A stretch of 41,571 nt of DNA. It comes from Pseudoduganella sp. (GTDB lineage Bacteria; Pseudomonadota; Gammaproteobacteria; Burkholderiales; Burkholderiaceae_D). A program made the position numbers and the translations under genes. Shown here piece after piece: positions 38,291 through 41,571 of this stretch (positions are counted from its first letter, which is position 1; every line of letters begins with the position of its first letter). The DNA is taken from contig JAJTCO010000029.1 in the NCBI GenBank assembly GCA_021323265.1, forward strand, positions 1 through 41,571. The letters are read 5' to 3'. The notes beneath the pieces were generated by a model. It worked only from the letters and a program-made list of their open reading frames with translations, did no database searches and had not been told where the DNA came from.

Positions 38291-40378
<2,088 letters not shown>

Positions 40379-40422
40379 GGTTCGTCTCTTCTTTCTTGGT
40401 ATGTGGGTGGTGCCGAGCAACT

Positions 40423-40451
40423 ACTATACCCCAGGAATCGCACGATCGTGC
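40423..40451 (-). promoter_or_regulatory. Promoter and palindromic operator of the FadB/FadJ-like gene
   Basis: On the minus strand a -10 TATAGT (40428-40423) predicts a start near 40416. The perfect 12-base palindrome GCACGATCGTGC (40440-40451) covers about -24 to -35, where a repressor would block polymerase. TetR-type fatty-acid regulators are natural candidates. Confidence 0.55.
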
Positions 40452-40638
40452 ACTTCTATTGGGGCCGGCGTGGCGTGAGTATATAAAAATTTCCTGGAGT
40501 TAATCACTATTCCATTATCGAAATATTGCAAGTGCTTGATTTAGCTCAGCAATTGGGTGCCGAATAATATCCTGACAAGTGAGTTTTCATATTGCTCAGA
40601 CGCATTTACCACAGCCAAAAAAGTTTTTAAAATTCCGC

Positions 40639-40667
40639 TTGCCACACGGCAATTAGCCGACTAAGAT
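40639..40667 (+). promoter_or_regulatory. Sigma-70 promoter of the riboswitch-subtilase transcript
   Basis: TTGCCA (40639-40644), a 17-base spacer and TAAGAT (40662-40667) predict a start near 40674, just before the riboswitch aptamer. The -35 matches consensus at 5 of 6 positions, the -10 at 4 of 6. Confidence 0.7.
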
Positions 40668-40680
40668 TCCGTACAGCAAG

Positions 40681-40768
40681 ATCTGAACAGGGCAAACCAT
40701 CCGAAAGGGTGGGACGCAAAGTCAACGGTCTAACGAGCTTCGGCTCCATGACGGCAGGACTGCCAGAC
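40681..40768 (+). ncRNA. Cyclic di-GMP-I (GEMM) riboswitch aptamer
   Basis: The conserved core AGGGCAAACC is at 40689-40698. P2 is CCATCC-GAAA-GGGTGG (40697-40712) with the GNRA tetraloop. The invariant GGACGCAAAG follows (40712-40721). P3 is closed by GTCA (40721-40724) and TGAC (40749-40752), capped by GAGC-TTCG-GCTC (40735-40746), and has a tetraloop-receptor-like TAAC/CCA internal loop. The 3' side GGCAGGACTGCC (40753-40764) leads into a short P1 (TCTG with CAGA). These elements match the known class in order and sequence. It senses c-di-GMP, the second messenger of sessile growth. Confidence 0.93.
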
Positions 40769-40859
40769 AAAAGTATCCCCCAGCCACCGGCGCCGCGCCA
40801 GTGGGCGGTGTGGTGCAGTCTTCTACCGGCATAGACCGGCGGGCAGTCCTCGTTTTTTT
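40756..40859 (+). terminator. Riboswitch expression platform: long-range terminator overlapping the aptamer
   Basis: AGGACTGCC (40756-40764), the 3' end of the aptamer, can pair over 9 bases with GGCAGTCCT (40842-40850). A T7 run follows at 40853-40859. The 77 bases between can fold into smaller hairpins such as CCGG-N6-CCGG. Aptamer and terminator therefore compete for the same strand, which implies termination without c-di-GMP and read-through with it. Confidence 0.65.
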
Positions 40860-40885
40860 GAAATTTGAAAACAGGGACTCGCACA

Positions 40886-41571
40886 ATGAAAACCATCACC
40901 ACCATCTCCGCCGCTATCGCCACCGCCATCGCCACCCTGGCTGCGCCAAGCTTCGCCGCGCAAACCGAAGAGTTCGCCCAGGGCCGCATCATCGTGGAAC
41001 CGCGTGCCGGCCTGACCGTGGACGCCATGGCAAAGATCCTCAAGCAGCACGGCGGCAAGGCGCGCAAGCTGGGCCAGAGCAACATCCACATTGTCGACCT
41101 GCCAACGGGTTCGGAAAAGGCTGTCGCCAACAAGCTCAAGCACAACCCGCACTTCAAGTTCGCTGAACTGGACCTGCGCGTCGAGATCGCCGCGACCGCG
41201 AACGACACCTACCTGGGCAGCGAGTGGCACATCAACAAGATCGGCGCCAGCACCGCCTGGGACAGCACCCAGGGCGCCGGCGTCACCATCGCCATCCTGG
41301 ATTCGGGCGTGGACGCCAGCCACGCCGACCTGGCCGGCAACCTGGTGGCCGGCTACAACACCTACGACAACAACACCAACACGGCCGACGTGTGCGGCCA
41401 CGGCACCAAGGTGGCCGGCGCCGCCGCCGCCGTGACCAACAACGCCACCGGCGTCGCTGCCGTCGCCGGCCAGGCCAAGATCATGCCGATGCGCATCGCC
41501 TACAACAGCTCGGGCGCCTGCTACGGCTGGATCTCCAGCATCGCCAGCGGCATCACCTGGGCGGCCGACCG
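40886..41571 (+). CDS. Secreted subtilisin-like serine protease, S8 family (partial, 3' end outside window)
   Basis: The first 228 residues are visible. A signal peptide ends near SFA (residue 24). A short propeptide-like domain (about 32-95, GRIIVEPRAGLTVDAMAKIL ending in a LPTG turn) resembles the fervidolysin/I9-type prodomain. The catalytic domain begins near 105. Asp139 lies in AILDSGVDASH and His172 in CGHGTKVAGA, the first two members of the Asp-His-Ser triad; the serine lies beyond the right edge. A spacing of 33 residues is normal for S8 enzymes. The protein would be exported and activated by loss of the prodomain. Transcription passes through a c-di-GMP riboswitch, tying protease output to the sessile-motile switch. 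The leader is about 210 bases long. Family assignment is firm, but any C-terminal domains are unknown. Confidence 0.95.
   Translation, partial: MKTITTISAAIATAIATLAAPSFAAQTEEFAQGRIIVEPRAGLTVDAMAKILKQHGGKARKLGQSNIHIVDLPTGSEKAVANKLKHNPHFKFAELDLRVEIAATANDTYLGSEWHINKIGASTAWDSTQGAGVTIAILDSGVDASHADLAGNLVAGYNTYDNNTNTADVCGHGTKVAGAAAAVTNNATGVAAVAGQAKIMPMRIAYNSSGACYGWISSIASGITWAAD

Follow-up and report, generated by a model that had tools for sequence, protein, structure and literature searches.

In which direction does c-di-GMP act on the leader of the subtilase gene at the end of the window, i.e., of the whole stretch of 41,571 nt from Pseudoduganella sp. that was analysed? The gene is preceded by a predicted c-di-GMP-I riboswitch aptamer and an expression platform (Table 1), and a first-pass annotation of this DNA had proposed that c-di-GMP permits read-through by keeping an aptamer strand out of a terminator. 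Most likely the switch works the other way round, and c-di-GMP would shut off translation.

The encoded protein carries a Peptidase_S8 domain (PF00082, E 8.5e-17, 61.8 bits compared to a cut-off of 21.8), a Fervidolysin-type prodomain (PF22148, E 1.5e-6), and a signal peptide called by eye, in agreement with the secreted subtilase of the first-pass annotation. D139 and H172, which we take to be the catalytic Asp and His, are invariant among 25 subtilase sequences, and the Ser would fall past the contig end. Three full-length relatives combine the S8 domain with C-terminal Ig domains (Pfam). The divergent neighbour on the minus strand (38294-40378) encodes a FadB-like enoyl-CoA hydratase/3-hydroxyacyl-CoA dehydrogenase.

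Table 1. Features of the subtilase leader and gene in the window.
Feature	Position	Strand	Basis or remark
Sigma-70-type promoter	40639..40667	+	-35 TTGCCA 40639-40644, -10 TAAGAT 40662-40667, spacer 17
Palindrome TTGCC-ACAC-GGCAA over the -35	40639..40652		Sequence, genus comparison
c-di-GMP-I riboswitch aptamer	40681..40767	+	RF01051 covariance-model match
Strand A	40756..40764	+	Model columns 76-84; 3' side of the last helix of the aptamer
Second GCAGTC copy	40815..40820	+	GUCU 40818-40821 pairs with AGAC 40765-40768, extending A:B inward (fold)
Local hairpin CCGG-CAUAGA-CCGG	40826..40839	+	Predicted fold; just 5' of B; shortens the A:B loop
Strand B	40842..40857	+	40842-40850 pairs with A; 40845-40857 pairs with C
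T7 run	40853..40859	+	U-tract of a possible terminator; 40853-40857 also pairs with GAAAA of C
Strand C GAAAACAGGGACU	40867..40879	+	Contains the Shine-Dalgarno sequence AGGGA 40873-40877
S8 subtilase, apparent signal peptide	40886..41571	+	228 aa, open at the contig end; Pfam

The complete GEMM aptamer claimed in the first-pass annotation was recovered by the covariance model RF01051 over the full model length (model positions 1-87, 73.7 bits, E 9.4e-13, gathering score 35), and within 40500-41000 only RF01051 reached a gathering score under permissive Rfam filters. This is the single RF01051 match of the host genome (149-contig assembly, 83% complete), in which 62 GGDEF stretches were found. 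In the Rfam alignment, model columns 11, 38, and 83 fall on G40691, A40718, and C40763, presumably corresponding to the ligand contacts G20, A47, and C92 in Vc2 numbering. Column 11, which we take to be the position where a change to A marks cGAMP variants, is occupied by G here as well as in 23 out of 23 rows of the aptamer alignment, which excludes L053. From the sequence match, binding of c-di-GMP by the aptamer is predicted.

Likewise, the sigma-70 promoter claimed ahead of the aptamer is present, with 9 out of 12 consensus matches for TTGCCA-17-TAAGAT; four promoter-like sites were observed in 40400-41000 compared to 0.7 expected. Transcription probably starts near 40674. In the genus, a set that takes in species named Pseudoduganella, Duganella, and Massilia, a TTGC-type -35 occurs in all 18 upstream regions (the -10 was assessed by eye). 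The TTGCC-N4-GGCAA palindrome is perfect in five of these 18 regions, occurs with one arm mismatch in nine further ones (by eye, -35 column), and is missing from L003, L006, L010, and L022; it is possibly a site for a transcription factor or other regulator.

Strand A (AGGACTGCC) includes C40763, which we take to be the ligand-pairing C, equivalent to C92 of Vc2. Over its entire 9 nt it is complementary (100%) to GGCAGTCCT, the 5' part of strand B, with 77 nt between the two, so that the long-range pairing and the shared aptamer strand of the first-pass annotation are both confirmed. The T7 run is present as well and is separated from the A:B helix by CG; it starts 86 nt past the 3' end of the Rfam match; the 94 bases given formerly were counted from another end of the aptamer. 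The second GCAGTC copy, supposed earlier to pair with the same aptamer strand, does exist, and in the fold its GUCU pairs with the AGAC adjoining A; by eye, GCAGTCTTC was also seen in eight of the 18 genus leaders. The stem of the local hairpin 5' of B varies in sequence among relatives and its complementarity is kept (by eye; e.g., CCGCCC/GGGCGG and CTGCCC/GGGCAG).

Strand B runs on as CGUUUUUU, and GAAAACAGGGACU precedes the start codon. Together they are predicted to form a hairpin over the Shine-Dalgarno (SD) sequence with -11.0 kcal/mol (40845-40879) or -11.8 kcal/mol (40843-40881). This predicted pairing of B with the SD region is the feature that the first-pass annotation missed. Due to the fact that B is complementary to both A and C, A and C compete for B. 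Within the window leader, the A:B duplex has p 0.030 (200 dinucleotide shuffles of the leader), which makes a single leader weak evidence; it is the recurrence in relatives that makes A:B real. Complementarity to C alone has p 0.18 in the duplex test against shuffles, and the final 48 nt of the leader together with the start codon have a folding z of -2.5 (p 0.02 compared to shuffles).

For a transcript reaching 40860 without ligand, the mean pair probability of A:B is 0.95, and over transcript ends 40850-40875 A:B beats the ligand-free aptamer by 14.5-17 kcal/mol (16.7 kcal/mol at 40860). Since A:B is so strongly favoured over the ligand-free aptamer, the ligand must bind before B is made. 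With the aptamer forced in the fold, A is unable to pair with B, and B:C forms after C is transcribed; the SD bases are then predicted to be 0-2% unpaired, except for the mismatched A40873. Forcing A:B instead raises the SD accessibility of the window leader from 0.20 to 0.61. At full length without ligand, the optimum contains B:C (-80.8 kcal/mol versus -77.7 kcal/mol with A:B forced), an advantage of 3 kcal/mol for B:C. The translated state would thus have to be a kinetic trap: for the SD to be open at low ligand, A:B must form before B:C and last. Folding with and without the aptamer thus bears out the competition of B for the aptamer strand A expected from the first-pass annotation and does not support its ligand-ON outcome as the main mechanism, as the SD is predicted to be masked with the aptamer formed.

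We therefore favour, with a probability of roughly two in three, a translational OFF switch, in which the ligand would hold A, B would mask the SD, and the protease would be made at low c-di-GMP. In detail, B would capture the aptamer 3' strand A at low c-di-GMP once B is transcribed, leaving C open for translation of the protease. When c-di-GMP is high, A would stay in the bound aptamer and B:C would close over AGGGA, stopping translation. The choice would be kinetic, as A:B can form when approximately 29 nt of transcription are still needed to finish C, and a pause at the U-run may give A:B time. With the aptamer formed, the SD was predicted to be paired, by the very strand whose other partner is the aptamer, in the window and in all 17 genus leaders tested.

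The comparison comprised 60 leaders, 17 from the genus, which are not independent of one another, and 43 others, with L111 counted twice. Left out were L121 (leader >200 nt), L126 (aptamer behind the subtilase), L136 and L172 (truncated), L015 (contig end), and L102-L106 and L108 (duplicates of genus loci). Start codons were picked by SD strength among in-frame starts, hence a few starts may be misplaced and strong SDs are favoured. An A:B helix of 8-11 bp recurs in 17 of the 17 genus leaders. When the post-aptamer sequence was folded alone as a proxy for the ligand-bound state, 75% or more of the SD bases were paired in 17/17 genus leaders and 31/43 others. Complementarity of the SD-masking strand to A reaches p<=0.05 in all genus leaders (p 0.007-0.040) and in 15 of the 43 others (150 dinucleotide shuffles each); the remaining 28 non-genus leaders miss this threshold.

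SD masking alone is common in shuffles (p 0.08-0.98), and complementarity to C alone attains p<=0.05 in 19/60 leaders, including 3/17 of the genus. As both are unremarkable by themselves, the informative parts are the coincidence of the mask with the A-complement and the stability of the local hairpin. A further duplex test looked for a single segment able to pair with A as well as with C; this was found at p<=0.05 in 29/60 leaders and at p<=0.01 in 14/60, where 3 and 0.6 of 60, respectively, are expected if the two pairings are independent. The 3'-terminal segment (48 nt and the start codon) is more stable than shuffles (p<=0.05) in 16/17 genus leaders (mean z -3.2) and in 22/43 non-genus leaders (mean z -1.8). 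For paralogues without an aptamer this was found in 2/9 (mean z -0.3), one of the two being L087 with its residual B; in the other 7/9 the pre-start region is no more stable than shuffles.

Forcing A:B, which was possible for 57 leaders since L146, L180, and L170 are without a 6-bp helix, raised SD accessibility by at least 0.2 in 26/57 (11/17 genus) and lowered it by at least 0.2 in none. Among the six genus leaders with a gain below 0.2 (L010, L019, L022, L023, L024, and L025), accessibility drops from 0.20 to 0.15 in case of L019. The A:B helices stay paired while their sequence differs between taxa, e.g., AGGACUGCC/GGCAGUCCU in the window, GGGAUUGC/GCAAUCCU in L143, and CGGGAUUGC/GCGAUCUCG in L135. 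Depending on the leader, the base 3' of the SD GGA is paired as C-G, G-C, A-U, or U-A, pair types that were taken from single-sequence folds and are therefore biased towards pairing.

In the genus, 26 RF01051 matches were observed in 18 out of 74 genomes. Close copies of the subtilase (identity >=55%) occur in 12 of the 74 genomes with 26 copies, one of them a contig-end fragment, and all of these 12 genomes belong to the 18 with a riboswitch. An aptamer is located upstream of 17 of the 26 copies and is absent from nine; an eighteenth genus aptamer, L015, ends at a contig end. The copies are often arranged in tandem, two or three in a row and each with its own leader (L087, L089, L092, L097-L101), and in such arrays the riboswitch precedes some copies only. 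The second copy of L099 (10200-10436) has aptamer and platform. In the syntenic L097 (10180-10394) and L098 the cassette is absent, the promoter is similar to that of L099, and the ribosome site (...AAAACTGGA) is identical. The first copy of L087 has lost the aptamer, and a decayed B with T-run, GGGTAGTTCTCGTTTTTT, is left before the start.

A second subtilase type lies behind a c-di-GMP-I aptamer in L016, L017, and L018 (S8 with an Inhibitor_I9 prodomain according to Pfam, L018 only), and its short platform has a hairpin covering the SD, GCCTCTAT/ATAGAGGC in L016 (by eye). In case of L002, L005, and L009, c-di-GMP-I aptamers precede a protein without a Pfam match (L002 checked), and related GTTGCCAACGT-like words occur both at the end of the aptamer and in the platform. 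The regions 5' of the first subtilase copy of L100 and L101 have a hairpin-like sequence in common, GGCGACAAGCCC...GGGCTGT..AGCGTCGC followed by ACAGTCCTGTT, without an aptamer match; no Rfam family matched this hairpin in L100, which was searched.

Named genomes were then searched at the protein level with 25 N-termini, which gave at least 595 stretches; 354 relatives were confirmed, and the best 80 of these 354 were kept and scanned with an aptamer model built here. The model matched 52 of the best 80 loci, among them L172 with a weak truncated match. New here is the observation that the aptamer is located upstream of homologous subtilases, on the same strand, in 51 of the best 80 of 354 named loci, from Burkholderiales to Geobacter. 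Six of the 51 (L102-L106, L108) are genus loci, several of which are also in the model, and outside the genus the count is 45/73. Since the protein query contained no leader, the association is not built in; by common ancestry the loci are dependent. The taxa with aptamer and subtilase include Massilia, Noviherbaspirillum, Nitrosospira, Thauera, Aromatoleum, Rubrivivax, Azohydromonas, Competibacteraceae, Colwellia, Methylotuvimicrobium, Geobacter, Desulfatitalea, and Ca. Brocadia, with several of the named records being metagenome bins.

Rfam supports 20 of the 20 loci submitted, all of which had an aptamer-model match: 13 as RF01051, six as RF03167 (c-di-GMP-I-GGC), and one as RF03168 (c-di-GMP-I-UAU). 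In other genera of the family, an S8 protease of the same kind lies downstream in 27 of the 130 better-scoring RF01051 loci (matches in 153 of 392 genomes, among the matches listed), with E values of 2e-119 or lower for 26 of the 27 and of 9e-16 for L185; the other 103 are without S8. The subtilase, singled out in the first-pass annotation as an unusual target, is unusual compared to the usual target list, and less so given that the pairing of aptamer and subtilase is widespread. In Nitrosomonas aestuarii Nm36 (L126), the aptamer lies approximately 2.4 kb behind the subtilase match and so before some later gene.

Several of these observations bear on the transcriptional ON switch of the first-pass annotation, in which A:B plus T7 would terminate without ligand and the c-di-GMP-bound aptamer would keep A, permitting read-through to the protease. 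The mutually exclusive use of model columns 76-84 by aptamer and terminator helix, the 9-bp helix that is predicted to be nearly always paired at 40860 with T7 following two bases later, and the precedent of a related aptamer whose ligand-pairing C is captured by a terminator (PMC9262584, in the part of the text available) speak for it, and the T7 of the window keeps it alive. A T-run of at least five follows B in 11/17 genus leaders. However, the other 6/17 (with no more than T3 in L003 and L006) and 40/43 leaders outside the genus fall short of T5 (3/43 reach it), so that the U-tract is not kept. A terminator scan, which excludes long-range helices, gave one weak local site, GGCGGG..CUCGUU, where 0.8 are expected. 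Furthermore, with the aptamer formed, B is predicted to close the SD hairpin, which would leave the read-through RNA untranslated. Ligand-ON antitermination is thus unlikely to be the main mechanism.

Both partners of B coexist with T7 in the window, which would also suit an incoherent dual control, where A:B partly terminates and opens the SD, and B:C permits read-through and closes it, with an output that is flat or confined to intermediate conditions; Bc1 of Bacillus thuringiensis is described with such logic in the available part of PMC11218506. We consider this quite improbable, as the T-run is variable in the genus and the A-complementary SD mask occurs in 17/17 leaders, pointing to a termination part that is not under selection throughout the genus. 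A genuine aptamer that is decayed or inert, with pairings arising from base composition, would agree with the modest p-values of the single leader (A:B 0.03, B:C 0.18) and with the nine of 26 genus copies without an aptamer. Against this stand the recurrence of the mask throughout the genus leaders, the hairpin that follows the aptamer (16/17 compared to 2/9 paralogues), and the full model length of the aptamer in distant taxa, which together leave chance very little room.

Four known systems come close to the leader. In Clostridioides difficile, a c-di-GMP-II riboswitch precedes a secreted metalloprotease; it resembles the present leader as a c-di-GMP riboswitch for an exported protease and differs in riboswitch class, protease family, and phylum. 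Another related system is Vc2 of Vibrio cholerae tfoY, a class-I aptamer whose ligand represses translation according to the available part of PMC7371385. Like Vc2, the leader has a class-I aptamer whose ligand is predicted here to mask a ribosome site distant from the aptamer; unlike in Vc2, as far as this source covers it, the target is a secreted subtilase instead of a regulator, and the masking strand carries U7 and forms a terminator-like helix with the aptamer strand. The pilM cGAMP riboswitch of Geobacter metallireducens, a transcriptional ON switch with an aptamer-capturing terminator, shares the downstream strand that takes the aptamer 3' strand including the ligand-pairing C and the exclusiveness of aptamer and competing helix; it responds to cGAMP at the level of transcription, and an SD mask on the same strand is unmentioned in the available part of PMC9262584. 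Bc1 likewise has a long expression platform in which the terminator exposes the ribosome-binding site and the ligand places it in a stem, but it has two terminators and other genes, and no c-di-GMP response was seen, as far as the available part of PMC11218506 goes.

In the literature searched, as far as the texts were available, a c-di-GMP-I riboswitch before an S8 protease was not described, the gene list of the GEMM-motif paper being outside the comparison. PMC6456294 and PMC8835794 mention no protease, peptidase, or subtilisin, PMC7266159 mentions neither protease nor peptidase, and the available part of PMC13194489 contains no c-di-GMP-I riboswitch before an S8 protease.

Taking the distribution and the folding together, it is tempting to speculate, at somewhat less than even odds, that aptamer and exported subtilase are an old unit, found in Geobacter relatives, Gammaproteobacteria, and Burkholderiales, whose mRNA would release the protease at a drop of c-di-GMP as a brake on dispersal or scavenging. 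The cassette would have come and gone while the promoter and the ribosome site on either side stayed fixed; in Pseudoduganella, acquisition of a U-tract would have made the masking strand a three-way hub of aptamer, terminator, and SD. The syntenic loci L099 with the cassette and L097 and L098 without it represent a natural test of the role of the cassette. The control of secreted proteases by c-di-GMP is usually attributed to protein regulators, and here the link between c-di-GMP and protease would sit directly in the mRNA. The secreted protease would presumably be released as c-di-GMP falls and cells leave the sessile state. If the translational OFF switch is true, a fall of c-di-GMP would turn on extracellular proteolysis without a transcription factor.
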